Part shown: positions 7,252-44,277 of the stretch, in pieces
How positions within the stretch are numbered: position 1 is the stretch's first letter
Layout: each line of letters opens with the position of its first letter
IMG/VR virus record: IMGVR_UViG_3300024999_000132
Span: 1 to 55,277 of that record
Source of the DNA: a virus
Length of the DNA stretch: 55,277 nucleotides
Reading direction: 5' to 3' (one strand)
Program-made: the position numbers and the translations under genes
The notes under the pieces: model-generated
Told to the model about the DNA's origin: nothing
Databases searched by the model: none
The model's input: the letters and a program-made list of their open reading frames with translations, nothing else

Positions 7252-7803
7252 TTACCCCTCTAACTTAATTATTCCCCTTCGTACATTCATCGCAAAAACA
7301 TAATCATCACAACAATTTCCAGCCCCAATAAATCCATTTTCCAAATCATAAAACTTCTCAAAAGTCAAATATATTTAACAAATAAATCATAATAATTTAA
7401 TAAAATCTATCTATTTTTCTATAATAATAAATAAATCCTTAACATCATACAAACCCTAATCTACAACAATTTCTGGCACATTCCATTACATAAAATACCA
7501 TCTTATGATCTATAAAATACACTCGAATATTAACCTCAAAATAACTATAAAAATCAATTTATTATAAATCATATCGAACAAATTATAAAAACAATAATCA
7601 CAATAAATGCATCTATAAAAATCAAAATATCCATCTAATAAACCCTCCATAAAATCCTTATACAACAGCACTTACATCTATTATACTATATCCTTTCTAT
7701 ATAAGGGGGCGTATATTTAACAAACTTGACCGAATCAAATTTTGGGAGTAAACAACAATATAAATTACTAAAAATAAATTTTATAAATCTATAAATAAAT
7801 ATG

Positions 7804-7832
7804 TTGACATATATCTTGTAATTTGATATACT
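7804..7832 (+). promoter_or_regulatory. Sigma-70/A-type promoter, first plus-strand operon
   Basis: TTGACA (7804-7809), a 17-bp spacer and TATACT (7827-7832), close to consensus. A 13-bp palindrome follows at once (7834-7865). An AAGGGGGA box near 7870 precedes an ATG-GAT-TAG mini-ORF that has no evident function. Confidence 0.75.
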
Positions 7833-7833
7833 A

Positions 7834-7865
7834 TATATAGATATAAAATAAATTATATCTATATA
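7834..7865. promoter_or_regulatory. 13-bp palindrome downstream of the promoter
   Basis: TATATAGATATAA (7834-7846) and its exact reverse complement (7853-7865) are separated by 6 bp. It starts directly after the -10 box, so it is either an operator or a hairpin at the 5' end of the transcript. Confidence 0.5.
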
Positions 7866-7958
7866 GATAAGGGGGAATATATTATGGATTAGGAAAATTT
7901 AAATTATCTTTTATGGTTAGAAAAATATTGAGTTAAAATAGAAAGGATTGATTGATAA

Positions 7959-8735
7959 TTGGCATATGCAAAAATAAATGAATCTGTAAAAGTTGCTGAT
8001 AGAGTAGGACAAATTGGAGTAAATAATTTTGGTAGCAAAATGATGATAATAAAATATAATAATACAAAAGATATTGACATATATTTTCCTGATACAAATT
8101 ATACAGTTTACAATCGTGAATATAAAGATTTTATGAAAGGAATGGCAAATTCGTTATATGATAAAACAGTTTGTGGAGTTGGTTATTTGGGAGTAGGAAA
8201 ATATAAAAGTGGTAGAAATTCTAAAACAACTAGTCAATATCGTTGTTGGACGAATATGTTGCATAGATGCTATGATGAAAAATTACATAAAAAACGTCCT
8301 ACATACATAGGTTGCACTGTCTGTAATGAGTGGTTAAACTTTCAAAACTTTGGTCAATGGTATGATGAAAACTATTATGAAATAGATGGAGAAGAAATGC
8401 ATTTAGACAAAGATATATTAATTAAAGGTAATAAAATTTATTCTCCAGAGACATGTGTATTCGTCCCTGTTAGAATTAATTCTTTGTTAAAAACACACAG
8501 ACATAACAATATACTAGTAGGTGTATCCGCACATCATAGAAAATATAATGCAGTTTGTCGCGACAATGATTCAAGTATATATTTAGGAAGTTTTAATACA
8601 CCCGAAGAAGCCTTTAATGCATATAAAGAATATAAAGAAAAATACATAAAACAGGTAGCATATGAATATAAAAATAATATTCCTCAGACATTATATGATG
8701 CTATGTGTAGATATGAAGTGGAAATTACTGATTAA
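7959..8735 (+). CDS. HNH-type homing endonuclease with AP2 domain
   Basis: A 258-aa protein starting at TTG 7959 with AAAGGA 12 bp upstream. The centre (about residues 90-170) has the phage HNH-like layout: YRCWTNMLHRCYDE, then GCTVCNEWLNFQNF, then a PETCVFVP-like strand after LDKDIL. The C-terminus (about 185-230) resembles a DNA-binding AP2 domain (GVSAHHRKYNAVCRDN, then YLGSFNTPEEAFNAY). Such proteins are free-standing homing endonucleases that cut intron- or gene-free alleles. It is the first gene of the plus-strand transcript and has no obvious role in phage biology. Confidence 0.8.
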   Translation: MAYAKINESVKVADRVGQIGVNNFGSKMMIIKYNNTKDIDIYFPDTNYTVYNREYKDFMKGMANSLYDKTVCGVGYLGVGKYKSGRNSKTTSQYRCWTNMLHRCYDEKLHKKRPTYIGCTVCNEWLNFQNFGQWYDENYYEIDGEEMHLDKDILIKGNKIYSPETCVFVPVRINSLLKTHRHNNILVGVSAHHRKYNAVCRDNDSSIYLGSFNTPEEAFNAYKEYKEKYIKQVAYEYKNNIPQTLYDAMCRYEVEITD

Positions 8736-21295: not shown

Positions 21296-24049
21296 TTGGC
21301 AAAGCAAAAAACTAATCTAAGATACATATATAAGATACATTCATCTAGATTAAGCAAATCAAATTGGAATTTATCGCTTACAATTCCAGAAGCAATAGAC
21401 AATGAAGAATTAGTATCCCTTGCTGATAGCACAACTCTTCGATTTATCAATAAAGATAAGAATATTGAAGGTGATGCGAATAAAATTAGAAAACAAATAA
21501 AAGACTTGAAAAAACAAGATACCAATATGGAGAATAGGAATAAAATTAAAAAACTATATGCACTATTATACAATACTTTGTTTGTGAAAGACTATATCTG
21601 TATTATTATTGATAAAAACAAGCATTTTGACAGAATGAATAATACTAAAAAGTTCTATATCAATGGAATTAAATTTAAAAGATTACTTGCTACAAATGGA
21701 GGAGCAAAAAAAAGCACTGTCATATATGTTAATGAACAAATTTATGACAATTTACATAAGAGAATTGAGAATGGTAGGGATGAGAGTAAAGAACTCGTCC
21801 CTGCTAAACTAGAAAGTTATAAATCATTAACATGTAGTGCCAGTATTCCAGTTTCAGATCCTAAAGGCATCCTAGTTGTAAATGATTGCGAAACGGAATT
21901 TTATAGTGATGTGATATTATTAGATGATTCTAAAACAGAATATCCTTCTATGACTTATGAGAAAAACTATCCTATAAAATTAATTGAAAACGATGGATAT
22001 GGCATGATTTGTCCAGAATTAAGTTTAGCATGGGGAAAAGAAATTGATAAAGATTGTAATAGTATTGCATCTGGTTTCTGTTTGAGAAATAGTTTTTGTA
22101 AGGGCATGGTTTTTTCCTTTGATTATGTAGATCATGCATATCATTTTGCAGAATCCTATATGGTTAAAGATATTTGGGGAGAAGAAAGAGATATCCGAAG
22201 TGTTCAATTAGTGCTTACTGCCTCAATGTTAAAATTATGGGACTCATATAAAAGCCTAGAAGACTATATGAAATGCTACAAGGAAAATGATTATACATTT
22301 AGTGTAACAAAAGTAACTCCTGAAAAATTAGAAAATGAACGCTATCTAAATTATCAATTTGCACAGTCATATGAATTATCTGATGATGACATAGATGAAC
22401 TAATAAAACCAACTGTACAAGAAATACATGATGTATTAGGAAATGATCCAATTAAAAGTATTCTATTTCTAAGGGGAATGCACTTATCTGAAAATAGTTA
22501 TGATACACAAGAGACAGATTTTATCAAGGCATTAATGATTGATAAGGAAATGATAAAAGACCCATTTGTGAAAAATAAAATACATAATTCTATAAAGAAA
22601 CGTATTAACGATGCAAAAATTGGGGTACTTAAGGTTTCAGCCAACTACTCTATAATCTCTGGAGATCCATTTTCCCTTGCTCAAAGTATATTTAAATTAC
22701 CTGTGACTGGATTATTGAAAGCGGGAGAATTTTATTCTAAGTATTGGAATGATAAAAATGTTGATAAAGTTGTATGCTATCGTGCTCCTATGACTTGTCA
22801 TAATAATATTAGAATACTTAATTTAAAAAATACTCCAGAAATGCAGTATTGGTATAAACATATAAATACAGTAACCATATTTAATTCATGGGATACAACT
22901 ACACATGCTTTAAACGGGGCAGATAAGGATTCGGATCAGGTACTTACAACTAATAATCCAGTTCTTTTAAATAATACTAGAGAATTGGATGCAGTATTAT
23001 GTATTCAAAAATCTGCTCCAAAGAAAGTTGTAAAAGAGAATGATTTAGTTAGAGCAAATAAAAATGGATTTGGAGATGCAATAGGTTCAACTACAAATAA
23101 GGTTACTGGTATGATTGATGTTGCTAGTAGTTTTGATAAAGAAAGCGAGGAATATAAGGAATTACAGTATAGAATAATTTGTGGTCAGAATTATCAACAA
23201 AATGCAATTGATCGTATTAAAGGATGCATAAGTAAACCAATGCCTAAAGAATGGTATGATTATCGTTTTGCTAAAAATACTGATAAAAGTGAATTTAATA
23301 TTAGGATTTTAGCAGATAAAAAACCATATTTCTTTATTTACAATTATCCATATTTAATGAGAAGATACAAGAAATATATGTCTGATGTAAATAAAAATTG
23401 CTTGATTAGATTCGGATTAGATGTTAAAGAATTAATTAAAAAAGAAGATAGGAACGAATATGAAGAGCAATTTTTGAAATATTATTACATAAAAATGCCT
23501 ATTTTTAATAATAATTCGGTAATGAACAGAATTTGTTGGAAAATAGAAAAGGAATTTGATGGATTTAAAAGTGTTGGTACTAAGGAACAAGATTTGTTTG
23601 ATTGCTCAATACTAAAAAGTCTTACTAAGTATTCAAAGAAAAGATTCGCTGACATAAAAATTGTATATGAAGACTACAATATTAAACTTAGAGAACATGC
23701 ACAAAGTTCATCTAAAAGCAAGATAGATAAAGATGAAGAAAAGACAAAAAGAATTGTATTTAAGGAGAATTTTAAGAAGCAAGCACAAGAAATATGTAAT
23801 AATGAGGATGAATTATGTAATATTGTTGTTGATTTATGCTATAAAAACAATTATTCTAAGCAATTTGCATGGGATATCTGTGGAGATGTAATTATTAAGA
23901 ATTTATTAATAAGGAATAATAACATAGTACAATATCCCATTGCAGATGATAAAGGTAATATAGAATTTGGTGGAGAAAAGTTTTCTATGTTTGTCAAAGA
24001 TTTAAATGATTTAGATGTGGAGGAAGAATATGATATTGATATTAAATGA
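21296..24049 (+). CDS. Single-subunit DPBB RNA polymerase, YonO/RdRP-like
   Basis: A 917-aa protein. In order it shows DGYGMICPEL (from residue 233), FCLRNSFCKGM (Arg264, Lys269-Gly270), ASMLKLW (about 309-315), YRAPMTCHNNIRIL (Arg496) and GADKDSDQ (Asp543, Asp545, Asp547). This order matches the double-psi-beta-barrel polymerases related to eukaryotic RdRPs and phage SP-beta YonO, where an R-x-P block precedes the metal-binding DxDGD; here the Gly is replaced by Ser (DKDSD). YonO is a DNA-dependent RNA polymerase, so late phage transcription is the likely role. The TTG start has AAGGAGAG upstream. The divergence is large enough that it may be a new branch. Confidence 0.8.
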   Translation: MAKQKTNLRYIYKIHSSRLSKSNWNLSLTIPEAIDNEELVSLADSTTLRFINKDKNIEGDANKIRKQIKDLKKQDTNMENRNKIKKLYALLYNTLFVKDYICIIIDKNKHFDRMNNTKKFYINGIKFKRLLATNGGAKKSTVIYVNEQIYDNLHKRIENGRDESKELVPAKLESYKSLTCSASIPVSDPKGILVVNDCETEFYSDVILLDDSKTEYPSMTYEKNYPIKLIENDGYGMICPELSLAWGKEIDKDCNSIASGFCLRNSFCKGMVFSFDYVDHAYHFAESYMVKDIWGEERDIRSVQLVLTASMLKLWDSYKSLEDYMKCYKENDYTFSVTKVTPEKLENERYLNYQFAQSYELSDDDIDELIKPTVQEIHDVLGNDPIKSILFLRGMHLSENSYDTQETDFIKALMIDKEMIKDPFVKNKIHNSIKKRINDAKIGVLKVSANYSIISGDPFSLAQSIFKLPVTGLLKAGEFYSKYWNDKNVDKVVCYRAPMTCHNNIRILNLKNTPEMQYWYKHINTVTIFNSWDTTTHALNGADKDSDQVLTTNNPVLLNNTRELDAVLCIQKSAPKKVVKENDLVRANKNGFGDAIGSTTNKVTGMIDVASSFDKESEEYKELQYRIICGQNYQQNAIDRIKGCISKPMPKEWYDYRFAKNTDKSEFNIRILADKKPYFFIYNYPYLMRRYKKYMSDVNKNCLIRFGLDVKELIKKEDRNEYEEQFLKYYYIKMPIFNNNSVMNRICWKIEKEFDGFKSVGTKEQDLFDCSILKSLTKYSKKRFADIKIVYEDYNIKLREHAQSSSKSKIDKDEEKTKRIVFKENFKKQAQEICNNEDELCNIVVDLCYKNNYSKQFAWDICGDVIIKNLLIRNNNIVQYPIADDKGNIEFGGEKFSMFVKDLNDLDVEEEYDIDIK

Positions 24050-28079: not shown

Positions 28080-28830
28080 TACTAGAAAGGAATGATTAAA
28101 TTGCAAGAATCTAGTAAAGATTAAACATCTCTTACAGATATGGTGAATTTGGCGATTCATTGGCAGTTACCTTAACCAACCACAATAAGGTCAGAAATGG
28201 TTCCTGACGCACTCGAAAGAGTACCTGAGATGCAAGATACACCGACTTGCTATTGTGGTCTGATAATCATATTGATATGTCTAGTAGCATCTTAGTTGGC
28301 ATACTATAGAAGGTTGTAAGTCCAACAAAAATGTTTCCCTCACTCCCATGATTTTATTGGCGAAGGTTTGTAGTGGATAAGAGTGTAAAGAGAACCTTGT
28401 ACAAGTTAAGTATCGTTTGGGGAAATGATATTTAACAATATTATGAAGGAATTATAGAAGTGCAAACTTCCTCGAATTATTTATAATTCGGTTTCAAGTG
28501 TAATTCCTTCATAATAAAAATACAATATTGGCAGATGCCAAAGATAAAGAATAGGGAAGTGTAGCGAAATAAGTAATGATCAACCATGCTGTAAGGCATG
28601 TATGTGGGATGCTACATAGTCATCTTTAGATAAAGGGTTGGGATGACACAATGGCTTAATTGCCGACTAGATAATTTCCCCTCATCACTCATTGTTTGTT
28701 CTCTATGGCGTTAATCACAGTTTTATTTAAACTTAGTGATAGAGACAAATGGCATACTGCAATGATGTTGATGAATATAGAGTATGCCAAATTACAAATA
28801 AGGTGAATTTATAGGGGTAGATTCACCTTT
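28080..28830 (+). ncRNA. Large ornate noncoding RNA candidate A (ROOL/GOLLD-like)
   Basis: About 750 nt without a coding frame but full of paired elements. A cloverleaf-like domain at 28179-28259 is closed by ACCACAATA/TATTGTGGT and holds three hairpins, one capped by a GAAA tetraloop (28211-28222). A 14-bp perfect stem (28441-28454 with 28501-28514) closes a three-way junction. GGCATACT/AGTATGCC, TGTAGC/GCTACA, GTCATC/GATGAC, TTGGC-AGAT-GCCAA and TCTCT+ATCAC with GTGAT+AGAGA add more helices. A hairpin AAGGTGAAT/ATTCACCTT at about 28799-28829 closes the region. A tRNA gene lies 5' and another large RNA 3'. Size and setting fit giant phage RNAs such as ROOL; identity not proven. Confidence 0.65.
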
Positions 28831-29044: not shown

Positions 29045-29728
29045 ATGTCTAATTCACAAAACACTAATTCAACAATTTCACTAAAAGAGTCTTTTCGCAC
29101 ATTGGTTTATATTGATAAAACTATTTCATCTCTCACTTCATATCTTTCTAATAAAAATAACTCTATTTCTGTGATTGAACAACATTTGAAAGAAAAATCT
29201 AATCCAGAAGCAAAGAATGAGGAATTAGATACAACTACTATTAAAGAATATCCAGATGCTTCAACAATTAATATTATTAATCTTGTTCAAAACTTAATTG
29301 CAGAGAAAACAAAATTAGAAATTTCAGTAGAATTAGCTAAAAGAGATATAGTAATTCAAACTAAAGATAATAATAATCTAAGTTTAGATTCTGCCATATC
29401 AAATGCAAAACAATCTAGAAATTTAGCTAATGTATTAAATAATCTTATCAATATAAAAACGGATGAGAAAAAGACCGTTGCTCAAGGGTTTAAGTTTAAT
29501 ATCAACGGGGAAGAAGTGCCATATAGGTATGATGTAGTAATTACTAAAAACATTAATTTTGATAGAAATACTGTTAGTGATAATTATAAATCTCTCTTAG
29601 AAAAAGCTGATAAGCTCAGTATTTCTATTGAAAAAGCCATGATGGAAGAAATTGTAGAATACGAATTTCCTTATAGTATTCATGATTCGACAGCAGATAT
29701 TGTAGGGAAGTATTTAGATACTTTATAG
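29045..29728 (+). CDS. Hypothetical coiled-coil protein, 227 aa
   Basis: A 227-aa protein, mostly alpha-helical, with heptad-like stretches at about 10-50 and 75-150, then a small beta segment (QGFKFNINGEEVPYRYDVVI) and a C-terminal helix pair. ATG 29045 has GAAGGAA upstream. Its stop codon TAG is part of the first paired segment of the next large RNA candidate. It may be a structural or RNA-associated protein; no family recognised. Confidence 0.55.
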   Translation: MSNSQNTNSTISLKESFRTLVYIDKTISSLTSYLSNKNNSISVIEQHLKEKSNPEAKNEELDTTTIKEYPDASTINIINLVQNLIAEKTKLEISVELAKRDIVIQTKDNNNLSLDSAISNAKQSRNLANVLNNLINIKTDEKKTVAQGFKFNINGEEVPYRYDVVITKNINFDRNTVSDNYKSLLEKADKLSISIEKAMMEEIVEYEFPYSIHDSTADIVGKYLDTL

Positions 29729-30629
29729 GATTTAACCATGACAATTAATAAGGGGATTGCCTAACCATAGTCTCCTTATTAAAACAACTAACCAGAAGCA
29801 AAGCAAGATAGACTATTTATTTGGACATCTGAAATTAGATGTAAATTCAAGTTAAATCTTACCATATTCAAACATGGTACTAACACAGGTTATGTATATT
29901 AAATACATAAATATAAACAAAAATTGAGTTTGCTGTCACAAGCAAGAAGAATCACTAATCTATCACTAAGCGCAAAATCATCATTCGCAAATTCGATATG
30001 TCTCTAATTTCAATATTCATTAGTACGACAATCAATCGCTAATCACGCATAAATAAATTTTAGGATTAATAATCCTTAACTAGAAAAACAAATATAATAA
30101 AATTATAGTTTTTAAAAGATACTCTCTTAGAAATAAGAGGATGATTTTAATAATAAATGGATAATATAATTAATAAATAGTCTTATTTTGCTTGCTTTAC
30201 TGGTTAGATATATAATAAAAGTCATTTGTGTTTTAGACACGTTATATGGAGGCATTTGTCTCCCTTGGTATTTTTGATATGGGAGAGTTTAATTATCTCC
30301 CCTTCTCAATAAACTAAATAGGTTTTGCAAGTTGCAACCTAAATAAAAAACTTGCATTTATTAATAATTATAATCCAAGAAAAACTGTATTTTCTAGGAT
30401 TTTAAATCAGGAATATTATTAGTACTTAAATGGATGAATATAATTACCCTTGCTGAAAGGCATGAGGATTGCAAATGTATTTTTTTACATTTGCCATGAT
30501 AATTTTTGCTCAGATGAGTACGAGAGAATTGTTAAAAACTAAGGTAGGATGAGTTTTGTATATGACGCAATTGAAGGGATTGGTTTTAAAACTGTTCGAT
30601 AGCGTGCTATTTTTAGAATCCTACACTAT
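29729..30629 (+). ncRNA. Giant ornate noncoding RNA candidate B (GOLLD-like)
   Basis: About 900 nt with no coding frame. A long-range stem of 29 bp with small bulges joins 29788-29821 to 30172-30207 (CTAACCAG/CTGGTTAG, AAGCA/TGCTT, AGCAA/TTGCT, GACTATTTATT/AATAAATAGTC). Inside it are hairpins at 29825-29842, 29860-29879, 29890-29910, 30063-30075, 30084-30113 and 30124-30139 (GAAA loop). The 3' part holds more at 30248-30263, 30281-30301, 30319-30341, 30372-30401, 30471-30494 and 30599-30610, and a closing GTAGGAT/ATCCTAC (30543-30550, 30618-30624). Two tRNA genes follow directly. Length, tRNA adjacency and phage location are the hallmarks of GOLLD RNA. Confidence 0.7.
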
Positions 30630-30704
30630 TGGCGAGTAGTTCAGTGGTAGAACGCCTGACTGTTAATCAGGATGTCGAAGTTTCGAATACTTCCTTACCA
30701 GCCA
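30630..30704 (+). tRNA. tRNA-Asn (anticodon GTT)
   Basis: A 75-nt cloverleaf: acceptor TGGCGAG/CTTACCA with one C-A mismatch and one G-T pair, anticodon arm CCTGA-CTGTTAA-TCAGG with GTT, a TTCGAAT T-loop, discriminator G and encoded CCA. The gene starts directly at the 3' end of the large RNA candidate. Confidence 0.88.
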
Positions 30705-30707
30705 AAC

Positions 30708-30781
30708 GCCTGACTAGTTTAATGATAAAACTTCTGTTTTGTAATCAGAGATTCACAGTTTGATTCTGTGGTTAGGCTCCA
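30708..30781 (+). tRNA. tRNA-Thr (anticodon TGT), second copy
   Basis: A 74-nt cloverleaf: acceptor GCCTGAC/GTTAGGC, D-stem GTTT/AAAC, anticodon stem TCTGT/TCAGA with a T-T pair next to the loop TTTGTAA (TGT), T-arm CACAG/CTGTG and encoded CCA. It is a different sequence from the first tRNA-Thr (27697), so the phage carries two Thr-TGT isodecoders. Confidence 0.85.
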
Positions 30782-30819: not shown

Positions 30820-30960
30820 ATGAAAGAAACTAATATTTATGATTCAATAAATGAAAATACAATATGCCCTATATGCTTTAGAAATAGATTTTGGCTAAAG
30901 TTTTATTGTGGTAAGACAATATTATGGTGTGCTGATTGTGGGTATTGGATAGAGATTTGA
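30820..30960 (+). CDS. Small zinc-ribbon protein, 46 aa
   Basis: ATG 30820 with AAGGAGGA upstream opens a 46-codon frame. CPICFRNR and CADCGYW form two CxxC pairs separated by about 20 residues, with a further Cys between: a classic single zinc ribbon. It may bind nucleic acid. The next gene starts 37 bp later. Confidence 0.6.
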   Translation: MKETNIYDSINENTICPICFRNRFWLKFYCGKTILWCADCGYWIEI

Positions 30961-43310: not shown

Positions 43311-43359
43311 TTGTTTAAATTTAAGAAAGGAAGATTCTCATTAGAAAGGAATGATAAAA

Positions 43360-44277
43360 ATGGATAAAAACTTTATAGAAATTACTAATTTTTGCAGTAG
43401 TAGAATAATTGATATAAGCATAAGAGAATGTGGAATTTATGCATTATATAATATTGAAAATGGAAAGATTTATGTTGGAAGTAGTATAGACATGTACTCT
43501 AGAACAAGAAGGCATCTTTCCGATTTAAAAAATGGAAAACATTATAATAGATATTTAATTAGAGCATATAAAAAATATGGGAAGTCAATAATCCCCGTTG
43601 TTTTAGAAATTGTAAAGAATAGAGAAAATCTAATTGAACGTGAACAATATTGGATTGATCATTTTGAAAGCTATAATAATAAAGTTGGATACAATATCTG
43701 TATTATTGCGGATAGATTAACCGGCATTTTTAGAACAGACGAGGAAAAGAAACATTTAAGTATTATTAATACTGGCAGAAAACACACTGAAGAAACAAAG
43801 TTAAAAATGAGTAAATCTAGAATAGGAATTCAATATTCAGAAGAAACATTAAAAAGGATGAGCGAGTCTCATATTGGCAAAAATTTATCTGAAGAAGCAA
43901 AAGAAAAGTTAAGAAATAATATCAATATAATTCCAATATATCAATATTCGTTAGATGGTATGTTTATACAAGAATGGAAGAGTGCTGCTGAGGTGGTTAG
44001 AGTAAAAGGATTTGACTCGTCTGCTATAACAAAATGTTGCAGAGGAAAATTACATAAACATAAGGGATATATTTGGAAATATGAATATTTTGAAAAACTA
44101 GAAATAAAGTATAAAAAAATTATACAGAAAACCCTAGACAATGAAATAATAAAAATATGGGATTCTATGAGTGATGTTTGTAAAACTTTAGCATATAGTT
44201 CTAGTGCTATATGCCAATGTTGTCTGGGTCATTGGGAAAAATATAAAAATTATAAATGGGAATATATGTTTTGTTAA
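43360..44277 (+). CDS. GIY-YIG homing endonuclease with NUMOD motifs
   Basis: The start ATG 43360 is preferred over 43351 because GAAAGGA ends only one base before the latter. The N-terminal GIY-YIG nuclease has GIYALYNIENGKIYVGSS, then an Arg-x-x-x-His (RTRRHLSDL) and a Glu in EREQYWIDHF. Two NUMOD3 repeats follow (GRKHTEETKLKMSKSRIG, HIGKNLSEEAKEKL) and then two NUMOD1-like segments (QYSLDGMFIQEWKSAAEV and a second near the C-terminus). These bind DNA beside the cleavage site. It is a free-standing homing endonuclease between portal and protease genes. Confidence 0.9.
   Translation: MDKNFIEITNFCSSRIIDISIRECGIYALYNIENGKIYVGSSIDMYSRTRRHLSDLKNGKHYNRYLIRAYKKYGKSIIPVVLEIVKNRENLIEREQYWIDHFESYNNKVGYNICIIADRLTGIFRTDEEKKHLSIINTGRKHTEETKLKMSKSRIGIQYSEETLKRMSESHIGKNLSEEAKEKLRNNINIIPIYQYSLDGMFIQEWKSAAEVVRVKGFDSSAITKCCRGKLHKHKGYIWKYEYFEKLEIKYKKIIQKTLDNEIIKIWDSMSDVCKTLAYSSSAICQCCLGHWEKYKNYKWEYMFC

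Follow-up and report, generated by a model that had tools for sequence, protein, structure and literature searches.

We describe a functional plus-strand RNA of about 480 nt, here called M1, that lies directly downstream of the gene for a 227-aa orphan protein in a phage sequence that forms an IMG/VR virus record of 55,277 nt (the whole stretch of DNA that was analyzed, hereafter the window). M1 appears to be new, since no Rfam family covers it and we know of no described system composed of a small protein and a heptad-repeat RNA. Judging from sequence comparisons, we give roughly an even chance that M1 is the RNA half of a protein and RNA cassette whose other half would be the 227-aa gene. 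An initial annotation had taken the region under study (29729-30629) to be one giant RNA of about 900 nt beside two tRNA genes. That part was wrong: the region is made up of separable units, because M1 (29733-30212), a pseudoknot (30313-30356) and a further module, M2 (30366-30628), are distributed differently among the relatives. The features are as follows.

29045-29728, plus strand: gene for the 227-aa orphan protein, from the ORF and its relatives; directly upstream of M1
29733-30212, plus strand: M1, large structured RNA domain of about 480 nt, found by nhmmer in all relatives with the 227-aa gene; covariation
29745-29782, plus strand: M1 5' hairpin, AACCA conserved in the loop; the stem varies and its pairing is kept
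29788-29821, plus strand: M1 closing stem, 5' arm, 33 pairs with 30172-30207
29825-29842, plus strand: M1 internal hairpin, 93% paired
29929-29946, plus strand: M1 internal hairpin, UUUGCU/AGCAAG in the window and UUUUACU/AGUAAAA in relatives
29950-30046, plus strand: M1 centre, conserved, unpaired and G-poor, with a 7-8-nt quasi-period of TCRYWAA-like units
30062-30076, plus strand: M1 internal hairpin
30124-30139, plus strand: M1 internal hairpin with a GAAA loop, double changes at 3 pairs
30172-30207, plus strand: M1 closing stem, 3' arm, pairing with 29788-29821; covariation
30213-30312, plus strand: variable hairpin zone, exchanged between relatives
30313-30356, plus strand: H-type pseudoknot with an A-rich third loop, covariation; part of the Zn-ribbon/tRNA unit
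30366-30628, plus strand: M2, optional cassette; 30544-30550 pairs with 30618-30624 to close its 3' half
30630-30781, plus strand: tRNA-Asn and tRNA-Thr, optional cassette
30820-30960, plus strand: gene for a 46-aa Zn-ribbon protein, constant downstream neighbour

The window belongs to a low-GC tailed phage that encodes a YonO-like RNA polymerase, HU, a D5-type primase and an exonuclease. The polymerase is a 917-aa protein (21296-24049) related to YonO and the phage 'RNA-dependent RNA polymerase', matching Enterocloster phage PMBT24 at 39.8%, and its DKDSD is probably the catalytic motif. PMBT24, the nearest named relative by this polymerase, carries no such noncoding block from polymerase to terminase. 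By eye, a GIY-YIG homing-endonuclease-like protein is encoded at 43351-44277, and further frames of the window look homing-endonuclease-like too. A Skipping-rope RNA (RF02924, 69.4 bits) was found at 28180-28258, and also in L014.

From the stop of the 227-aa gene at 29728 up to the tRNAs, the ORF list holds no credible gene, which bears out the absence of a coding frame reported in the initial annotation. When folded, the region reached -214 kcal/mol, versus -164 +/- 6 kcal/mol for dinucleotide shuffles (z = -8.1), so the fold check suggested there gave a value well below the shuffles. Blastn of the region against named phages gave no match, nor did cmscan of the window region against all Rfam families for M1. 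A pattern search of bacterial genomes returned 20 matches, about the number expected by chance, and none with the 3' arm.

Relatives were gathered with the upstream 227-aa gene as bait and their DNA was then mapped. M1 lay directly downstream of this gene, and co-directional with it, in all 19 distinct relatives found, and a 20th (L207) was recognized by its fold. The loci comprise 16 of type A (window included) and three of a diverged type B (L091, L092 and L093), plus L207, seen by its stem. Nearly all of them derive from a single set of metagenome samples whose numbers lie close together, and the M1 family is thus narrowly sampled.

The long-range stem noted earlier between 29788-29821 and 30172-30207 is present, with 33 pairs rather than the 29 bp first counted, and the local hairpins exist as well. 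This stem is the true closing element; TAGGATT at 29726-29732, formerly offered as a closing partner, shares bases with the stop codon that ends the 227-aa gene. Among 15 type A sequences, the 23 tested pairs of the closing stem were about 97% paired, and 34 tested pairs from the stem and two hairpins were 95% paired. Double-change cells numbered 17 in these sequences, versus 4.5 +/- 2.6 in shuffles and 0-5 when slid, counts that come from related sequences and are not p-values. The stronger argument for M1 is the type B closing stem, which has a quite different sequence and stands in the same place as that of type A. The cognate closing duplexes reached -36 and -31 kcal/mol for types A and B, versus -17 and -16 kcal/mol for the cross-type duplexes. 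The antisense strand pairs less well (-30 and -26 versus -36 and -31 kcal/mol), as G-U pairs predict, and the RNA is therefore assigned to the plus strand.

The most conserved part of M1 is the unpaired, G-poor centre between the hairpins. Within a region chosen by eye, type A gave a z of 6.6 at lag 7, 4.0 at lag 8 and 5.3 at lag 15 over rows that are related to one another, type B gave 4.7 at lag 8, and the M1 of the window taken alone gave 3.1 at lag 7. In L097 the M1 centre, including the array, is deleted, while the 227-aa gene and the stem remain.

The 227-aa protein had no family match in Pfam, PHROG or NCBIfam, and tblastn in named phages found none at E<=10. A first AF2 model from 13 sequences was poor (pLDDT 60), its fold matches were meaningless, and it was discarded. 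The model built with 18 sequences reached a pLDDT of 77, and its most probable PDB fold match was 3kdq (prob 0.97, E 0.28).

Downstream of M1 the units differ in distribution. The pseudoknot was present in 19 of 19 mapped M1 loci, and also upstream of the same Zn-ribbon gene in loci that lack M1 (L184/L192, L185, L188, L189, L190, L193 and others). It is listed upstream of the Zn-ribbon gene and phage tRNAs for the window and for L184, L185, L188, L189, L190, L193 and L215. Its pairs were 91% paired in 16 sequences in one register, with 33 double-change cells versus 10.5 +/- 3.1 in shuffles and 0-3 when slid, so that covariation in homologous loci, which the initial annotation had named as a check, exceeded the shuffles for M1 and the pseudoknot alike. 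By its behaviour this strongly covarying pseudoknot belongs with the Zn-ribbon/tRNA unit, and it appears to be a new and separate leader element. It shares the H-type form and A-rich third loop with the preQ1-I riboswitch (RF00522), but its P2 is mostly 6-8 bp and the sequence of its second loop varies across the 19 loci; identity with preQ1-I was rejected, the score being 15.8 bits against a gathering threshold of 39. A whole gene stands between M1 and the pseudoknot in L016, where it is inserted between the RNA modules at 7405-8295. L012 has a gene after the pseudoknot, and L020, by eye, an HNH-like frame in that position. Hairpins with an ACGAGUG loop and changing stems occur at L014 11328, L015 7680/7724, L016 8228/8272, L017 5496, L097 4702/4746 and L092 1139, with two copies in some RNAs; because ACGAGU is self-complementary around a tandem G-A, kissing between such loops is possible.

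M2 was rejected as a piece of one RNA with M1, its distribution in relatives being separate. Its identity remains about 90% even at loci where that of M1 has dropped to 70%, which indicates that the modules are exchanged. The pairing of GTAGGAT (30544-30550) with ATCCTAC (30618-30624), proposed earlier as a closing pair of the whole, is real and recurs in relatives, but closes only the 3' half of M2. The same M2 occurs without a following tRNA in L017, L018, L097, L025 and L196, so the tRNAs are optional, the junction of tRNA-Asn with the end of the pairing is not general, and the suggestion that tRNA processing sets the 3' end of the RNA fails, as relatives without tRNAs keep M2. The tRNAs themselves differ by locus: Asn and Thr in the window and L189, Phe in L098, and Ser, Leu and Thr in L190. 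Downstream tRNAs occur at just two of the 19 M1 loci, those of the window and L098, and L005 and L012 have tRNAs upstream.

A related layout was found in two sister contigs (L199 and L222), where a 213-aa gene, together with a different large RNA, takes the slot of M1 (type C). This RNA has its own long-range stem and repeats, its sequence is unlike M1 while the layout is shared, and downstream of the slot lie the same hairpins, pseudoknot and Zn-ribbon gene as at the M1 loci. The 213-aa protein is phrog_1491 (E 7e-54), which was found in 694 phage records. We sampled 17 named phages carrying phrog_1491; T5-like phages and Vequintavirinae are among the carriers. The hosts sampled were Escherichia, Salmonella, Pectobacterium, Raoultella, Serratia, Vibrio, Pseudomonas, Erwinia, Brevibacillus, Bacillus, Lactococcus and C. 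difficile, with Dulem virus 39 in addition, and the cassette thus spans phages of many Gram-positive and Gram-negative hosts. The gene is widely annotated 'tail fiber protein' in GenBank records, a label that looks doubtful, as the gene often sits among tRNAs and small early-type genes.

The gap after phrog_1491 measured 339-636 nt in 15 named phages, versus a median of 40 nt for 126 other nearby gaps. This count leaves out Jenst and Dulem virus 39, because doubtful small ORFs are annotated in their gaps, and ignores one doubtful small ORF in the Boevelstad gap. For 17 of 18 closing stems, all but that of Jenst, the cognate arms paired at lower energy than the mean of the non-cognate combinations. 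Nearly all of these RNAs share a core, AAAU-CCnnG and CnnGG-CUG separated by about 50 nt, of which Special G has no clear copy. A script found the core helix in 18 of the 19 cassette RNAs, and BM15 was then placed by hand at AAAACCCAC...GGTGGCTG. The helix was 97.6% paired, with 18 double-change cells versus 5.0 +/- 1.8 in shuffles (17 sequences). Just before the core lies an unpaired array of 7-nt repeats (in PVP-SE1, for example, CAAAGTT CAAAACT CAAAGAT TAAAGTT CAAAGGT), whose periodicity over the 19 RNAs gave a z of 14.4 at lag 7 and 12.3 at lag 14, with lags 8 and 15 weaker; taken singly, the period is weak in Jenst, BM15 and SE131. By eye, Boevelstad, pVp-1, AM12, BM15, phiPsa347 and Jenst each show a terminator-like hairpin and T-run right behind the closing stem.

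One Rfam family touches these RNAs. RAGATH-27 (RF03100) matched the 5' part of the phrog_1491-linked RNA of Dulem virus 39 at 77.2 bits (gathering 76.1), covering only 86 nt, and reached 56.3 and 55.1 bits, below threshold, in L199 and L222; the window region and M1 gave no match to it. In the open-access literature we found no description of RAGATH-27 or T5.085 and, for DIP1984, a mention only in a bacterial genome survey; we likewise met no earlier account there of the phrog_1491 RNA or M1, though one could exist elsewhere. Several observations were made in passing at these loci. The phrog_1491-linked RNA of Special G has a partial match to YrlA, a Y RNA-like RNA (L243 2553-2616, 44.5 bits against a gathering threshold of 69), in a sequence that resembles a permuted tRNA. 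In Brevibacillus phage Jenst a Skipping-rope RNA directly follows the phrog_1491 gene (L236 3134-3211), and a BsrG RNA (RF01412, 119 bits), a known type of toxin-antitoxin locus, lies just downstream of the phrog_1491 locus (L236 3669-3943). Long unannotated gaps near tRNAs were seen in Lactococcus phage AM12 (L241 836-1673, 838 nt) and PVP-SE1 (L235 3697-4670, 974 nt).

M1 resembles the phrog_1491 RNA in its order of gene then RNA, tentatively in its unpaired 7-8-nt array, and in its often tRNA-rich neighbourhood and its cognate long-range closing stem, a feature of the phrog_1491 cassette that was found both in M1 and in the named phages. The phrog_1491 cassette of L199 and L222 occupies the same slot as the 227-aa gene and M1, and the order in phiCDIF1296T (HU, tRNA, phrog_1491, RNA, phosphoesterase) is matched by that in the window (HU, tRNA, 227-aa gene, M1, exonuclease). 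The two differ in their repeats (TCRYWAA-type in M1, YARNNNU-type in the phrog_1491 RNAs), and the period is weaker in M1. Homology between the 227-aa and phrog_1491 proteins was not detected by hhalign (probability 0.4%), and by inspection the AAAU-CCnnG...CnnGG-CUG core was not seen in M1. 3kdq turned up for the phrog_1491 profile as well (E 0.25), and DUF6847 for one of its members (E 0.2), both of which we take to belong to the DIP1984 family; this shared pointer may link the two proteins, if faintly. We treat M1 as a counterpart of the phrog_1491 RNA and not as a member, since its protein is not phrog_1491 by sequence and the core is absent.

From these comparisons we infer that, in the widespread cassette, the protein coats the 7-nt array. 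M1 would be transcribed together with the 227-aa gene, and cleavage or trimming at the closing stem would release its domain. The neighbour protein, which is small and helix-rich, would then bind the array with about one protomer per 7-8-nt repeat, and the resulting RNA-protein particle may serve the phage in infection, most probably by helping it to take over RNA or translation, a role proposed because the cassette lies in tRNA regions. The downstream pseudoknot, M2 and tRNAs are separate cassettes of the Zn-ribbon/tRNA unit. On a broader scale, we tentatively put forward, at somewhat short of an even chance, an unrecognised phage ribonucleoprotein in several hundred phages of Gram-positive and Gram-negative hosts, in which a small coiled protein would assemble, with a protomer on each repeat, along a heptanucleotide-repeat RNA whose sequence lies just downstream of the protein's own gene, much as in a miniature nucleocapsid; the 227-aa gene and M1 would be a far-diverged or convergent version of it.

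Other explanations must be weighed against this one. The unpaired array, lying between hairpins as it does, might act as a sponge in the manner of CsrB-type RNAs, titrating some host or phage RNA-binding protein and not its neighbour, with the gene linked through co-expression only. We consider this unlikely, given that in each of two versions the RNA keeps strictly to a single protein gene, and that the repeat is not the GGA motif of CsrB. The same strict linkage speaks against a particle made of RNA alone, in which M1 would self-assemble like the GOLLD and ROOL cages. M1 is indeed large, ornate, phage-borne and near tRNAs, and the variable zone of relatives has the repeated, partly self-complementary ACGAGUG-loop hairpins; however, one third of M1 consists of unpaired repeats and neither GOLLD nor ROOL was matched, which leaves such a particle decidedly improbable.

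A role as a cis-acting untranslated region, in which the block would form the 3' end of the 227-aa mRNA as well as a leader for the Zn-ribbon/primase operon and regulate stability or translation, would account for the placement of all modules between two co-directional genes. It is plausible for the pseudoknot, which goes with the Zn-ribbon gene, and less so for M1. M1 and the pseudoknot separate in relatives, a gene stands between them in L016, and the corresponding RNA of several named phages finishes in a terminator-like hairpin; for the block as a whole we hold this reading to be quite unlikely. Least credible, and very improbable, is a DNA element whose repeats would be iterons of an origin or partition site, with the stems incidental. 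The repeats are A+T-rich and near the HU, primase and exonuclease genes, but the compensatory changes in long-range and local stems and the one-strand G-U pairs point to RNA.

The identification of the region as GOLLD, ROOL or a relative was partly borne out: the phage does have a large non-coding RNA here that is conserved and structured, in a part of the genome with tRNA genes, but the covariance models of both families found no match in the window RNA even at E = 10. For GOLLD (RF02032), cmscan of the window region gave nothing at E<=10 and the RNA loci of the window and 15 related records had no match, a single 8.7-bit chance match lying elsewhere. For ROOL (RF03087), none of 16 records matched at E<=10, in a search of unproven sensitivity because no control genome matched either, and cmscan of the window region was also negative.

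Of the large phage RNAs, the best known are GOLLD and ROOL, and we know of no protein partner for ROOL. M1 adds another class of large phage RNA, with a candidate protein partner encoded next door. The periodic array makes a concrete prediction of about 7 nt per protein, and the occurrence of the phrog_1491 pair in T5-like phages of laboratory E. coli makes a test of function possible. GOLLD and ROOL form RNA-only cages whose function is not known, and like M1 they are large structured phage RNAs often near tRNA islands (PMC12286853); M1 differs in being tied to one gene and in having a repeat array. The orphan RNA RAGATH-18, found with IS607 TnpB as its reRNA, resembles the cassette in being the partner of a protein encoded just upstream (PMC11061315). 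That partner is a nuclease, whereas the phrog_1491 and 227-aa proteins had no match to a nuclease family. The RAGATH-18 precedent (PMC11061315) makes it plausible that M1 and the protein of its upstream neighbour gene are partners.
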